This document shows positions 27,271-42,606 of a DNA stretch of 64,000 bases, in pieces. The DNA comes from Propionibacteriaceae bacterium (GTDB lineage: Bacteria > Actinomycetota > Actinomycetes > Propionibacteriales > Propionibacteriaceae): assembly GCA_031261485.1 (NCBI GenBank), contig JAISJO010000091.1, positions 1-64,000 of the forward strand, given 5' to 3'. The notes beneath the pieces were generated by a model. That model had not been told where the DNA came from. It ran no database searches and saw only the letters and a list, made by a program, of their open reading frames with translations. The position numbers were made by a program, and so were the translations under genes. How positions within the stretch are numbered: position 1 is the stretch's first letter; the number at the start of each line of letters is the position of its first letter.

Positions 27271-27525
27271 TTATGCGAGGTCGGCTGGCGGGTGGAGGAG
27301 GAACTCGTCAAGGGACAGGTGTCGTGCGCCGTCGCGGTCTTGGGTGATGGGGTCCATGCTGATGACAAAACGAGGGTAGCCGTCAGTCAAGGTGGAAAAG
27401 GCCCCAAACTCGCGGGTGGCGACATCGGATGTGGCGATCAGATAGGCGACCTGGATGTAACGGGGACTTCCATCTTTGACCGCGATGAAGTCGATTTCAC
27501 CCGTCGGATCAGAGCCGTGTCCCCC
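27271..27525 (-). pseudogene. C-terminal remnant of a DUF4143 ATPase
   Basis: Reading the minus strand in the frame that stops at TAA 27271-27273 gives a ~75-residue tail. It contains GEIDFIAVKDGSPRYIQVAY, VATREFGAFSTL and RDGARHLSLDEFLLH. This is the end of AAA_14/DUF4143 ATPases, where the nuclease-like C-terminal part carries this pattern. An in-frame TAG lies just upstream and there is no room for the ATPase domain, so about 80% of the gene has gone. It is not listed as an ORF on this strand. A complete family member lies at 41272. Confidence 0.8.
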
Positions 27526-27539
27526 GTCCTAGCAACTCC

Positions 27540-27638
27540 TTCCATTACGCTGGAAGAATGTGCCCAAACGAGGAAGTTCTTCCAGCGTAGTGGAATTATC
27601 GTGCGGTCATCGGACTTTCTTCCAACACGATGGAAGAA
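27540..27638. repeat. three TTCCA-N6-TGGAA palindromes at exact 40-bp spacing
   Basis: TTCCA-N6-TGGAA occurs at 27540-27555, 27580-27595 and 27620-27635, with starts exactly 40 bp apart. Copies 1 and 3 read TTCCAnnACGnTGGAAGAA forward. Copy 2 reads the same in reverse, and copies 1 and 2 differ at one base over 19. The array lies between the ATPase remnant and the TetR promoter. Confidence 0.88.
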
Positions 27639-27668
27639 TCCATGGCAAGTGTGAGGCGACCCAGTAGA

Positions 27669-27697
27669 TTGACTGAACTCATTCAATGACTTACACT
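27669..27697 (+). promoter_or_regulatory. TetR promoter with overlapping operator
   Basis: TTGACT (27669-27674) and TACACT (27692-27697) are spaced 17 bp. The 18-bp palindromic sequence TTGACTGAACTCATTCAA (27669-27686) covers the -35 and most of the spacer. It matches a second copy at 28364 in 15 of 18 positions, so it is a strong candidate site for the TetR protein. Confidence 0.72.
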
Positions 27698-27728: not shown

Positions 27729-28313
27729 GTGTCAAGAGTGACTAAGCCAGTTGAGGAGCGTCGGCAAGAGATAATCGACACTGCGCAACGTCTGTTCAAG
27801 GCCAACGGCTTCGACAAGACGCAGGTGGCAGACATTTCCAAAGCCATGAACACCGCCCAGGGACTCGTTTACCATTACTTCAAGTCAAAAACAGACATTC
27901 TCTATGCAGTTATCGATGCAATGGCGGCGGAACAGTCTCTCAAGACGAGCAAGATATTGTCTCAAAGCGACGGTTCCGCGCTTGAGAAGATGACACTGCT
28001 CTTCAACACCAGGCCCGATTTTGAGGACCTCGACACCTTGGTCTCAAGCCTCAAGAGCGACAGGGCCGTCCTCGAGTATTGCTCGAACAAGATGACGGCG
28101 TCCGCCATGCCGGTTCTGCTCTCGCTCATCGAGTCTGGGAATGAAGACGGATCCTGGACCTGTGAATACCCGAGAGAGACCGCTGTGTTCATTCTGCAAG
28201 GGCTTTCCGGGTTGGTTGAACTCATCTACTCTTCGACAAAAGACGACTCCAGGGTGAAGACCTTCACAAACTTCATTTTCCGCATCCTCGACTCGGGAGC
28301 ATCCCCGAAGTAA
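27729..28313 (+). CDS. TetR/AcrR-family regulator of the downstream ABC operon
   Basis: The 194-residue protein has a typical N-terminal helix-turn-helix (QVADISKAMNTAQGLVYHYFKSKTDILYAVID) and an all-helical C-terminal domain. GTG 27729 follows GAGAGGGG. It lies 94 bp before a two-ATPase ABC exporter on the same strand. A shared palindromic operator in front of both indicates that it controls itself and the transporter, in the manner of local efflux repressors. Codon use looks less GC-rich than in the nuo genes. Confidence 0.93.
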   Translation: MSRVTKPVEERRQEIIDTAQRLFKANGFDKTQVADISKAMNTAQGLVYHYFKSKTDILYAVIDAMAAEQSLKTSKILSQSDGSALEKMTLLFNTRPDFEDLDTLVSSLKSDRAVLEYCSNKMTASAMPVLLSLIESGNEDGSWTCEYPRETAVFILQGLSGLVELIYSSTKDDSRVKTFTNFIFRILDSGASPK

Positions 28314-28363
28314 GCACGCAAGTCTAGGCACGATGGCCGAGACGGTTCTCGCGTGCCAAGACT

Positions 28364-28381
28364 TTGAATGAATTCAATCAA
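28364..28381 (+). promoter_or_regulatory. operator copy upstream of ABC exporter
   Basis: TTGAATGAATTCAATCAA is a near-perfect 18-bp palindrome (half-site TTGAnTGAA) 27 bp before the first ATPase gene. Its first six bases can serve as a -35 (TTGAAT), the same arrangement as at 27669. A matching -10 around 28387-28392 is weak. Confidence 0.7.
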
Positions 28382-28407
28382 ACCATCAACTAGTAGGAGA
28401 CTCGGCA

Positions 28408-29349
28408 ATGTCGGTTTTACAGATTGAGCACCTGACCAAGGATTATGGGTCGGGGCGCGGGGTGTTCGACGTGTCTTTCGAGGTCAACCAAGGAGAGGTA
28501 TTCGGTTTTCTCGGGCCGAATGGCGCAGGGAAGACCACCACCATCCGACATATCATGGGCTTTTCTCGACCGCAGCATGGCACGACATCCGTCAACGGAC
28601 TGGACAGTTGGAAGGACCATTACATCATTCACAAGGACGTGGGCTACCTCCCCGGCGAAATCGCTTTGCCAGAAGCACTGACGGGGACTCAGTTCATTTC
28701 CATGATGGCGGAACTGCGCCATATCACTGACATGACGCACACCGATTACCTCATTGAGAAGTTCGCACTGGAACCTTCAGGCGGGCTGAAGCGGATGTCA
28801 CTTGGGATGAAACGAACGCTGGCGATTGTCACTGCCTTCATGCACGATCCACAGATTCTTGTCCTCGACGAACCGACGAGTGGGCTGGACCCCATGATGC
28901 AAGATATCTTTATCGGTTTCTTGAATGAGGAAAAGGCGCGTGGGAAGACAATACTGTTGTCCAGCCATATCTTCTCCGAAGTGGACGCCACCTGCGACAG
29001 AATCGCCATCATCAAGGATGGCCGTCTCGTTTCGACCTTTGTGGCAGACGACTTGCGCCACAACGAATCGAAGACCTTCAAGATTGAGTTCGCTTCCAAG
29101 GAGGACTTCGAACGATTCCGCACAGAAGTGGAGTATCCCCAGAAACTCAATGTCATCTCGGTGAAGAGGCACCGCAACCAGGCGAGAGTGCTCATCGATG
29201 ACAAGGACGTCAATAGCCTCATTGCGATTCTGTCGGACTATCACTTGAACTTCTTCACAGAAATCAAATTCACGCTGGAGGACTATTTCATGAAGTTTTA
29301 TGACGAGAATCAGAGTGTGGAAGAAGGCGTCGAAAATGCCGCTCATTGA
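28408..29349 (+). CDS. ABC transporter ATP-binding protein 1
   Basis: This 313-residue ABC ATPase shows Walker A GPNGAGKTTTIR and Walker B ILVLDEPTSGLDP. The signature region RMSLGMKRTLAI replaces the classical LSGGQ, and the switch sequence is LLSSHIFSEVDATCDRIAI. This variant signature is usual in ABC-2 exporters for lipids, antibiotics or peptides. A ~90-residue C-terminal domain follows the fold. ATG 28408 follows TAGGAGA. It overlaps ATPase 2 by 14 bp. Confidence 0.94.
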   Translation: MSVLQIEHLTKDYGSGRGVFDVSFEVNQGEVFGFLGPNGAGKTTTIRHIMGFSRPQHGTTSVNGLDSWKDHYIIHKDVGYLPGEIALPEALTGTQFISMMAELRHITDMTHTDYLIEKFALEPSGGLKRMSLGMKRTLAIVTAFMHDPQILVLDEPTSGLDPMMQDIFIGFLNEEKARGKTILLSSHIFSEVDATCDRIAIIKDGRLVSTFVADDLRHNESKTFKIEFASKEDFERFRTEVEYPQKLNVISVKRHRNQARVLIDDKDVNSLIAILSDYHLNFFTEIKFTLEDYFMKFYDENQSVEEGVENAAH

Positions 29350-30217
29350 AATCGAGAGTGTGACAAAAGACTACGGCGAAGGGCGTGGCAATTTTGATGT
29401 CAGCCTTTCCATTGAGAAGGGCGAAGTCTTCGGTTTTGTCGGCACAAACGGCGCTGGAAAGACGACACTGATTCGCCAGATGATGGGATTTCTCAAGTCA
29501 GACAAAGGCCACATAAGGATCAATGGTCTAGATGCTTGGTCCCAGTCTGCCGACATCAAGAAGCTGGTTGGGTATGTCCCTGGTGAGATCGCGTTCCCCG
29601 ATGCGCCAACGGGAACCGAGTTCCTGCGCCGCCAAGCGGAACTCTTGGGGCTCACGGACATGACCTACGCGGACTACGTCACGGCGAAGCTACAGCTTGA
29701 CCCTACGGCCAACCTCAAACGCATGTCCAAAGGCATGAAACAGAAGACCGCCATCGTCGCCGCATTCATGGCTGACTCCGAAATTCTGATCATGGACGAG
29801 CCCACAACTGGTCTCGATCCACTCATGCGAGCCGAGTTTGTGGACATCCTTACTGACGAAAAGGCCAAGGGCAAGACAATGTTCATGTCTAGCCACATGT
29901 TCGAGGAGGTGGAGGACACGTGCGACAAGGTTGCACTCATCAAGGACGGCAGAATCATCGCCGTCAAGTCGACTCTTGAGATCAGGCACAACCAGGACAA
30001 AGTGTACAAAGTCGAGTTCACCTCAGCCGAGGACTACAAACTCTTCTTAGCCGAGGCGTTTGAGTACTCCGAACAACGAGAAGACCAGAACCAAGTGCTG
30101 GTCAATGTGCACGACAGAGACATTGACCGCTTCCTACACGTCCTCAAGGACTATCACATCAAGTTTATTACTGAAATCAAATACTCTCTTGAAAAGTATT
30201 TCAAGAGCCTTTATTAA
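29336..30217 (+). CDS. ABC transporter ATP-binding protein 2
   Basis: This 293-residue paralogue of the upstream ATPase has Walker A GTNGAGKTTLIR, signature RMSKGMKQKTAI, and Walker B ILIMDEPTTGLDP. The two proteins match across the whole length, including the start (TKDYG-GRG-FDVS). They probably form a heterodimer under one permease. ATG 29336 (MPLIEIESV) is chosen, and the 12 track residues before it lie inside ATPase 1. The 14-bp overlap implies coupled translation. Confidence 0.93.
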   Translation: MPLIEIESVTKDYGEGRGNFDVSLSIEKGEVFGFVGTNGAGKTTLIRQMMGFLKSDKGHIRINGLDAWSQSADIKKLVGYVPGEIAFPDAPTGTEFLRRQAELLGLTDMTYADYVTAKLQLDPTANLKRMSKGMKQKTAIVAAFMADSEILIMDEPTTGLDPLMRAEFVDILTDEKAKGKTMFMSSHMFEEVEDTCDKVALIKDGRIIAVKSTLEIRHNQDKVYKVEFTSAEDYKLFLAEAFEYSEQREDQNQVLVNVHDRDIDRFLHVLKDYHIKFITEIKYSLEKYFKSLY

Positions 30218-30231
30218 GAAGGAACCGCGCA

Positions 30232-31476
30232 ATGTTTAGCAAGACGATTTTCAAACAGACGCTCAAATCCAACTGGAAGCTGTGGGCCGTCTTCACGGGG
30301 ATCATGGCTGTGATGAGCGCCCTTGTCATCGCGGTGTTCGACCGCAAGATGATTTCTTCCATGATGAATATGGTCAAAAACATGCCAGGCATCGCCGATA
30401 TCATCGGCGACCGGATGGACTCGATGACCTCGGTTCTCGGCCTGCTCGGGCAGAGTTTCTACTCACTGCAAGGCATCATCCTGGGGCTCATCTTCGTCAT
30501 CATGACAGCGAATTCGCTGGTCGCCTCGCAGGTCGACAAAGGCTCCATGGCGTACCTGCTGTCCACCCCGATCAAGCGTAGCAAGGTCGTCCGCACACAG
30601 GCTCTCTACCTGATTTCGAGCGTCTTGTGCATGTTCCTCATCGTCACCTCGGTCGGGCTTGTCACTGTGCAAGTCGCTCATCATGGCTTGTGGGCTGAGG
30701 AATACACTGCCGACGTGAAAGCCGCTGCGCAGGTCCTGGACCTCAGTGACGAGACTGTGGCGGGCGACCTCACGCTCATCCTCGCTGACGATGATGCGGT
30801 GACCTCTGGAGCCGAAGCTCGCGGCATCGACAAGGATGTCTACACAACATATCTTGGGCTCAAGATGGCGGAGAACGCCGGCGTTGAACAGCCGGGGATA
30901 CCTGCTGACCAGATGGAGAAAATACAGGCCAGTTTCATGGCAGGCATCACTGCTGCGGCGGAGGTCTTGGATGTCGATGCCTCGGACCTGGCCACAGACA
31001 TGGGGAAGATCAAGAACAGCGACGCTGCGATGACTGCCGCTGTTGACGCATCCGGCCTCCCCAAAGAGCTCTTCGTCACCATTGTCAACGGACAGCTTGC
31101 GAACGACGAACTCACTCTTGACCAGGGAATTGAGTTCAGCGTGAAGGACTATTTACTGCTCAACCTCGGCGCGTTCCTGCTGTTGTTTGCTCTGTCCAGT
31201 ATCTCCTTCCTCTTCTCTTGCGTGTTCAACCTGTCCAAGAACTCGCTGATGCTGGGCGCCGGAATCCCGATTGCGTTCTTCCTTTTCCAGATTATGTCGC
31301 AGGTCGGAAGCAGTTTGGAGGACTTCAAGTACGTGTCGCTGAACACGCTGTTCGCGCCCGGCGACATCACTGGTGGCGGTACCTTCTGGCCGCAGTTCGC
31401 TGTCTTGGCGGCCCTGGGTGTGGTTCTTTACACGGTTGGTGTCGAGGTCTTCAAGGAGAAGGACCTGCCGCTGTAA
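30232..31476 (+). CDS. ABC-2 type permease
   Basis: This 414-residue membrane protein has one N-terminal helix (LWAVFTGIMAVMSALVIAVFD), a group of three helices near residues 75-155, a ~150-residue hydrophilic Ala/Asp-rich domain, and three C-terminal helices. It starts 14 bp after ATPase 2. It is the only permease of the operon and may therefore dimerise or act as a long single chain under an ATPase heterodimer. The substrate is unknown. The layout recalls efflux pumps for lipophilic or antimicrobial compounds. Confidence 0.88.
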   Translation: MFSKTIFKQTLKSNWKLWAVFTGIMAVMSALVIAVFDRKMISSMMNMVKNMPGIADIIGDRMDSMTSVLGLLGQSFYSLQGIILGLIFVIMTANSLVASQVDKGSMAYLLSTPIKRSKVVRTQALYLISSVLCMFLIVTSVGLVTVQVAHHGLWAEEYTADVKAAAQVLDLSDETVAGDLTLILADDDAVTSGAEARGIDKDVYTTYLGLKMAENAGVEQPGIPADQMEKIQASFMAGITAAAEVLDVDASDLATDMGKIKNSDAAMTAAVDASGLPKELFVTIVNGQLANDELTLDQGIEFSVKDYLLLNLGAFLLLFALSSISFLFSCVFNLSKNSLMLGAGIPIAFFLFQIMSQVGSSLEDFKYVSLNTLFAPGDITGGGTFWPQFAVLAALGVVLYTVGVEVFKEKDLPL

Positions 31477-41047: not shown

Positions 41048-41203
41048 AGCTCAGCCATTCTACTGGAGATGCCGAAAACACCTTTCAGCGGGGCGAGTCG
41101 TAGTGTCGAAATCCTTGCATCACAACGAAGCCACGAGTCAATGGCAAGTTGTCCGAGCGACTGCCGCTCTCGGAGGTAGTTCTCCGCCCAGAGGAAGAAA
41201 TGC

Positions 41204-41259
41204 GTGATGATTATCACAGAATTATGTATAATTACGTGAGAACTACCACACGATTATAC
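41204..41259 (+). promoter_or_regulatory. palindromic promoter region of DUF4143 ATPase
   Basis: TATAAT at 41227-41232 is a perfect -10. It sits inside the left arm of GTATAAT...ATTATAC (41226-41232 and 41253-41259). A second inverted repeat GTGAT-gatt-ATCAC (41204-41217) occupies the -35 position. The arrangement suggests autoregulation or tight repression. The region is visibly AT-rich compared with its surroundings. Confidence 0.6.
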
Positions 41260-41271
41260 AAGGAGGTCGGC

Positions 41272-42606
41272 GTGGACCGCGACGCGATGAGAAAGCTCGT
41301 ACAGTGGCAGCAGTCGCCTCGGCGCAAGCCGTTGGTGGTGCAGGGCATTCGCCAGTGTGGGAAGACGTGGCTGCTCAAAGAGTTCGGGCGGACCCGCTTC
41401 CGCTCTACTGCCTATGTCAGCTTTGATGAGAACCCTGAATATGAAGAGTTCTTTGCTGTCAAGGATGTCGAACGTATCGTCGAGAATCTGTCTCTGGTGA
41501 CCGGTGTGCCAATTACCGGCCCGGACTCTCTGCTCATCCTCGACGAGATCCAGAATTGCCCAGCGGCTCTGAACTCACTGAAGTATTTTCACGAGAATCG
41601 ACCTGACCTGCCTGTCGCCGCTGCCGGGTCGCTGCTGGGCATCAGCCTGGCCGGGTCAGGATTTCCCGTCGGGCAAGTGGACTTCCTGAAGATGTACCCT
41701 CTGACCTTCGGCGAGTTTCTGCGAGCCAACGGGGCTGACACCCTGGCCGACTACGCTGAACAGGTTAGCCGTCTTGAACCTGTACCAGCAGCCTTCCTCA
41801 ACCCACTCGACGAGCAACTGAAGACTTATCTTGTCACTGGTGGGATGCCGGAACCGATAAGGGCATGGGCCGAAGAGCGTGACTTGTCGCTGGTGGAAAC
41901 AGCCTTGTCGCAGATACTTCGGGCGTATGAACTGGACTTCGCCAAACATGCCAAACCGACTGATTTCCCCAAGATCTCCCTAATCTGGGCGTCGCTGCCT
42001 TCTCAGTTGAGCCGCGAGAACAAGAAGTTTCTTTATCAGAGCGTCAAGCCTGGGGCACGAGCCCGAGAATACGAAGATGCGCTGCAGTGGCTGATTGGGG
42101 CAGACTTGGTCACCAAGGTTTTCCGCTCGACCGCTCCGGGCTTGCCCATCAGCGCTTACGACGACCTCGGAGCCTTCAAGATCTATCTCGCAGACGTTGG
42201 TCTGCTGCGTCGTCTGGCGCGTCTGACCCCGAGCGCGGTCCTGGAGCAAGACCAGAACCTCACTGAGTTTCGTGGGGCCATGACAGAAAACTATGTCCTA
42301 CAATCCTTGCTTCCACAATTGGATGGTGTTCCGCGCTATTGGTCCCAAAGCAATCCTCCCTACGAAGTCGATTTCCTTGTCCAACACGAAAACCGGGTGC
42401 TCCCCGTTGAGGTGAAGTCAGGGAAAGCCGTGGCGAGTCGCAGTTTGACGAAGTTCTCGACGGTATTTCCTGGACAGACTCCGCTTCGGGTCAGGTTTTC
42501 AGCGCAGAATCTGCGCCTCGACTCTGACGTGCTCAATATCCCGCTGAGTCTTGCACACCAGGGTAACCGCCTGATTTCTCTGGCGTTGGCGCAGCTGCAT
42601 CAGTGA
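41272..42606 (+). CDS. AAA_14/DUF4143 ATP-binding protein
   Basis: The 444-residue protein has an N-terminal AAA_14 ATPase (Walker A GIRQCGKTW; Walker B SLLILDEIQNCP) and a C-terminal DUF4143 domain with a nuclease-like core (WSQSNPPYEVDFLVQHEN...VEVKSGKAV, resembling E-x-K). GTG 41272 follows AGGAGG by 5 nt. The 41 track residues before it are not supported. The family is widespread, often multicopy and horizontally moved, with no firm role. The gene sits alone between the CCA enzyme and the ribosomal operon, a likely late insertion. Confidence 0.88.
   Translation: MDRDAMRKLVQWQQSPRRKPLVVQGIRQCGKTWLLKEFGRTRFRSTAYVSFDENPEYEEFFAVKDVERIVENLSLVTGVPITGPDSLLILDEIQNCPAALNSLKYFHENRPDLPVAAAGSLLGISLAGSGFPVGQVDFLKMYPLTFGEFLRANGADTLADYAEQVSRLEPVPAAFLNPLDEQLKTYLVTGGMPEPIRAWAEERDLSLVETALSQILRAYELDFAKHAKPTDFPKISLIWASLPSQLSRENKKFLYQSVKPGARAREYEDALQWLIGADLVTKVFRSTAPGLPISAYDDLGAFKIYLADVGLLRRLARLTPSAVLEQDQNLTEFRGAMTENYVLQSLLPQLDGVPRYWSQSNPPYEVDFLVQHENRVLPVEVKSGKAVASRSLTKFSTVFPGQTPLRVRFSAQNLRLDSDVLNIPLSLAHQGNRLISLALAQLHQ

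Follow-up and report, generated by a model that had tools for sequence, protein, structure and literature searches.

Positions 1 to 64,000 of contig JAISJO010000091.1 (assembly GCA_031261485.1, Propionibacteriaceae bacterium), the whole stretch of which is referred to here as the window, contain three palindromes of the form TTCCA-N6-TGGAA. These palindromes very probably represent an operator array orphaned by the deletion of a DUF4143/AAA_14 ATPase gene; the encoded protein would bind, and probably repress, its own promoter via this private array. The features concerned are the following, with the gene strand being the minus strand:

27617..27638, minus strand: putative operator copy 3 (gene-distal), TTCTTCCA-TCGTGT-TGGAAGAA, both half-sites perfect
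27577..27598, minus strand: putative operator copy 2 (middle), TAATTCCA-CTACGC-TGGAAGAA, centre 40 bp from those of copies 1 and 3
27537..27558, minus strand: putative operator copy 1 (gene-proximal), TTCTTCCA-GCGTAA-TGGAAGGA
27510..27536, minus strand: probable deletion junction, at which some 1 kb of the gene, encoding P-loop, AAA domain, and winged helix of the ATPase, has been lost between array and tail
27271..27519, minus strand: C-terminal tail of the DUF4143 ATPase (82 residues, 27274-27519) and stop codon, corresponding to query residues 334-415 with 63% identity to an intact relative

Perfect TTCCA-N6-TGGAA palindromes are found at 27540-27555, 27580-27595, and 27620-27635, as the original prediction had stated from the starts 27540, 27580, and 27620 and their exact 40-bp intervals, and no further perfect copy is present in the window. 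The 19-bp consensus proposed with it also fits copies 1 and 3 in forward and copy 2 in reversed orientation. The 16-bp palindrome described there is real, but it was drawn too narrowly, as the full site is an 8-N6-8 palindrome of 22 bp. No other equally spaced triple with the same arms (spacing 20-80) exists among the perfect 5-N6-5 palindromes of the window, and 100 first-order Markov simulations of this sequence did not generate any. In the whole genome of 2.8 Mb, the 14-letter pattern TTCCA-N6-TGGAAGAA is confined to the array, with four overlapping matches and none for the reversed control.

The array adjoins the 5' edge of a DUF4143 pseudogene remnant, of which residues 334-415 remain and which has lost the P-loop and the winged helix. 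Intact orthologues are encoded in two congeneric genomes, G007 (442-codon frame) and G017 (416 codons), and directly 5' of both a near-identical palindrome is present as a pair 39 bp apart. The site at positions 47439-47461 of contig C106 of G007, upstream of the intact orthologue, is identical to copy 3 of the window in 23 of 23 positions. This supports the suggestion that the palindromes originally served to control the DUF4143 gene. The G007 orthologue matches the Pfam families AAA_14 and DUF4143 with 103.5 bits (cut-off 27) and 55.2 bits (cut-off 28.1), respectively. Comparison with the two intact copies reveals the loss of about 1 kb between the proximal palindrome and the tail. As the palindromes were kept, the array has apparently outlived its gene and would now be without its protein. 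In G007 the palindrome can also be read as N-terminal coding sequence (SSIVLEE) within an open frame. This reading was discarded and put down to a frame that happens to be open further upstream, as the palindrome precedes the usual start and, in other family members, is private to the gene.

DUF4143 genes were gathered from the same and related genomes, from further families of the phylum, and from clostridial genomes, and were divided by their P-loop into type A (GVRRCGKS), which includes the remnant, and type B (GARQxGKST). The genome of the window itself encodes at least 16 DUF4143 genes. An array was defined as at least two 8-N6-8 palindromes with a shared half-site 39-41 bp apart; the window has three at 40 bp. 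Upstream regions were scored for the agreement of four 8-bp half-sites across two palindromes separated by a distance d of 22 to 70. In 227 non-redundant type A upstream regions, a score of at least 12 was reached at d = 39, 40, and 41 by 6, 37, and 2 genes, respectively, while there was no such case at the 46 other distances, in the coding sequence downstream that served as control, or after shuffling. Thus, the comparison with relatives proposed in the original prediction found conservation rather than its absence, with arrays of about 40 bp preceding many members of the subfamily in several phyla. The half-site is private to each gene, as exemplified by TCATCGGA, CGTCACTA, TTTGTCGA, TGTTTCAA, and AGAATTAA, and the palindrome centre resembles AnTATAnT. 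In the genome of the window, the array sequence of two similar paralogues is found only before those two genes, and in genome G548 a half-site palindrome is present at one further place besides its gene. Judged by sequence, many members of the common DUF4143 family thus appear to carry a private palindrome array of their own.

Some arrangements differ from this pattern. In a side group (L256, L304, L223), the palindrome pairs are about 32 bp apart instead of 40 bp. In five further loci (L411, L401, L409, L246, L102), the palindromes are mirror images with differing inner and outer half-sites, so that the whole array forms one dyad. Type B upstream regions (L130-L199, L219, L328) contain direct repeats with a 23-bp period instead, the sequences of which differ between genes. 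Such a repeat was found at d = 23 in 30 of 72 regions (2 in shuffles) and at d = 46 in 26 (0 in shuffles). An intact type B DUF4143 ATPase is encoded in the same window (41149-42606) and matches the PDC-S01 model of PADLOC at 2e-157.

The proteins of 79 genes with arrays were aligned, and the mutual information of residues and half-site bases was determined, with residues numbered as in L105. This column-wise approach was needed because a comparison of local protein identity with half-site similarity showed no overall relationship at identities below 55%, apart from a weak bump at residues 175-260. With a reduced amino acid alphabet, the strongest pair was residue 253 and base 6 with a Z of 7.54, compared to permutation maxima below 6.5 in 95% of cases and of 7.47 in the largest of 300. 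With the full alphabet, the strongest pair was residue 237 and base 4 (Z 6.3; 95% level 5.7). In the array genes, Arg237 goes along with G4 in 16 of 17 cases, compared to 4 of the 62 others. Glu or Asp at position 253 is paired with C6 (30 of 33), Lys, Arg, or His with G6 (10 of 11), and Asn or Gln with T6C7 (7 of 7). These residue-base pairings follow classical base-contact chemistry. With one representative for each of 47 clusters at 60% identity, the four associations retain p values of 2e-7, 2e-4, 4e-6, and 5e-3 in the order given, and with 50% clusters the first three hold. When the code was applied to held-out genes of plasmid, phage, and IMG/VR collections, base 6 was correctly predicted from residue 253 for 13 of 15 arrays, with 6.8 expected (permutation p = 0.0009); this test took the pairing of Thr253 with C6 as belonging to the code, and two of the loci (L518, L519) are near duplicates. 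The held-out arrays include those of Moraxella, Enterococcus gilvus, Listeria, Peptoclostridium, and, with an archaeal plasmid among the sources, Methanosphaera. Both orthologues of the window gene (L100, L101) have Glu253, and position 6 of TTCTTCCA is C, in agreement with the code, while the window's own protein has lost the respective region. Two amino acids of the likely reader partly predict the letters of the half-site.

An AlphaFold model of a member from a viral contig (409 residues) reached a predicted local distance difference test score (pLDDT) of 91 and a predicted template-modelling score of 0.91. It consists of an AAA+ core, a winged helix (214-226, 234-243, 250-262, and the wing), and a nuclease-like sheet. 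The scan of viral sequences had given no match with one protein and 72 loci with an alignment. When mapped onto the model by the invariant residues G229, T252, and Y256, residues 237 and 253 are the second residues of the helices 234-243 and 250-262. Fold neighbours identified with Foldseek are the archaeal ATPase 2qen, the STAND protein Avs5, and Orc1/Cdc6 bound to origin DNA. A sequence search of the PDB gave no match with one sequence, and a profile search gave only 2fna (E = 0.012). The single-sequence fold of the other DUF4143 protein of the window was uninformative (pLDDT 32). In the nuclease-like domain, the PD-(D/E)XK catalytic triad D...(D/E)-x-K was not found; the subfamily alignments show E-x-D and an invariant Q-V-x, so that the catalytic lysine is missing and DNA cleavage by this domain appears unlikely.

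In the mechanism proposed here, the intact ATPase carries its winged helix between the AAA+ core and the nuclease-like C-terminal fold, and each 8-N6-8 palindrome would be occupied by two subunits, adjacent palindromes being spaced by 39-41 bp. The half-site would be matched by residues at the start of helices 2 and 3 of the winged helix. As each gene has its own half-site matched in this way, paralogues would not cross-talk. Thus, the ATPase itself is the likely reader of the array, and it would repress its own gene. The best promoter-like -10 elements are concentrated within the array, at a position 14 bp upstream of the proximal centre (13 of about 54). Autorepression is the most likely main role of the array, given its location immediately before the gene, where it probably spans the promoter, and its near-absence from other places in the genomes checked. 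Physical binding, the oligomeric state including cooperative binding, and repression are what we infer from these sequence patterns.

Several observations weigh against this interpretation. A clear array, with a score of at least 10, is present in only about a third (~35%) of the type A upstream regions, and the overlap with the promoter depends on a weak consensus scan. A distance of 40 bp does not amount to a whole number of helical turns; the original prediction had assumed about four turns and sites on the same face of the DNA, but at 10.5 bp per turn the distance corresponds to 3.8 turns, and the same face is met only approximately. In addition, only the associations of Arg237 and Glu/Asp253 remain significant with one representative per 45% cluster. 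The code is also weaker in the held-out genes of the first collection, for which single palindromes alone could be taken: in these actinobacterial palindromes, p values were 0.012, 0.027, and 0.005, and 0.21 for Lys/Arg/His.

The most serious rival to autorepression, although rather unlikely, is that the ATPase binds its array for another purpose, with the array being a loading platform or origin-like site for an ORC- or STAND-like AAA+ assembly, for example in defence. The fold neighbours named above and the arrays of two to three sites at constant spacing are consistent with such an assembly, but the position immediately upstream of the gene, with a promoter-like -10 cluster, is more simply explained by autorepression. 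A more speculative and improbable extension is that an AAA+ immune sensor uses the array as its docking platform, at which the resting ATPase would silence its gene and wait, while infection would release or rearrange it. If so, private operators would let many paralogues share a genome without interference, and orphan arrays would be scars of turnover. That the palindromes act as RNA hairpins in an attenuator or in translational control is suggested by stems of 8 bp with loops of 6 nt near the start codon; this is very hard to reconcile with the covariation of winged-helix residues according to classical base contacts, with a constant 40-bp spacing, for which there is no reason in RNA, and with the conservation of the centre itself (AnTATAnT). 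Short palindromes in alternating orientation resemble repetitive extragenic palindromic elements at first sight, but a dispersed repeat (including miniature inverted-repeat transposable or CRISPR-like elements) or mere chance is hardly credible, as the array is unique in the genome, absent from the simulations, and found at the orthologous position in relatives.

The palindromes also lie 90-190 bp upstream of a TetR gene and could thus be the operators of the adjacent TetR/ABC transporter cassette, which comprises the following features:

27668..27688, strand not assigned: palindrome ATTGACTGAACTCATTCAATG, likely TetR operator, outside the array; the same class occurs upstream of the TetR homologues L005, L009, L010, and L014, without TTCCA-N6-TGGAA
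27729..28313, plus strand: TetR-family repressor gene of the ABC transporter cassette (Pfam TetR_N; 66% identity to a homologue from an Oscillospiraceae metagenome-assembled genome), neighbour and not owner of the array

This explanation was rejected as very unlikely. The motif is absent within 150 bp of the eleven TetR homologues checked, four of which have a different palindrome that is present in the window at 27668 and 28363, and TTCCA-N6-TGGAA is not shared with the promoters of TetR homologues. Furthermore, the same TTCCA palindrome precedes the DUF4143 genes of G007 and G017. The TetR gene lies between two palindromes of the class TTGAnTGAATTCAnTCAA (27668-27688 and 28363-28382); this class recurs before clostridial TetR homologues, and its members are probable TetR operators. 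The closest relatives of the TetR protein of the cassette (27729-31476) are encoded in Oscillospiraceae metagenome-assembled genomes (66%), which suggests transfer of the cassette between distant lineages.

Few uncharacterised genes of bacteria and archaea are as common as those of DUF4143 ATPases, for which no demonstrated function was found. The private array and the two-residue code indicate what the protein probably touches, would explain the coexistence of many paralogues in one genome, and provide a testable handle on the whole family with respect to DNA binding, repression, and specificity. No paper describing arrays of DUF4143 ATPases was found in the open-access literature, and the titles and opening abstract lines of open-access papers on DUF4143/COG1373 contain nothing on gene control.

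Orc1/Cdc6 binds DNA through a winged helix, and Orc1/Cdc6 and STAND ATPases combine an AAA+ core with a winged helix as does the present ATPase. However, template-modelling scores of 0.3-0.5 are low, the C-terminal fold, which is nuclease-like, is not shared, and, unlike for Orc1/Cdc6, the sites lie upstream of the protein's own gene, with an origin role being putative. Autoregulated repressors of the TetR or XRE type have palindromic operators beside their own genes, whereas the reader proposed here is an AAA+ ATPase of about 410 residues with a fixed array spacing of 39-41 bp.

By its match to the PADLOC model PDLC04787 (2.8e-124), the intact orthologue belongs to PDC-S01, a single-gene phage defence candidate with DUF4143/AAA_14. 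In annotated plasmid records, genes of this family stand alone with varied neighbours. According to the available passages of PMC12988326, PDC-S01 is an ATPase fused to a domain of the PD-(D/E)XK superfamily and the fourth most common defence system across prokaryotes, with 29,494 bacterial and 9,986 archaeal copies, and validation is pending for most such PDC candidates. These passages do not mention a private operator array or a recognition code, and the lysine of the nuclease motif is missing in the present subfamily (invariant Q-V-x), in contrast to the description of PDC-S01. The regulator RptR represses a defence-island promoter by binding repeats inside the promoter (PMC12255303). RptR is a small dedicated regulator with a conserved TAGCTA site, whereas in the DUF4143 family the candidate effector itself would carry the reader, and the site is private to each gene.
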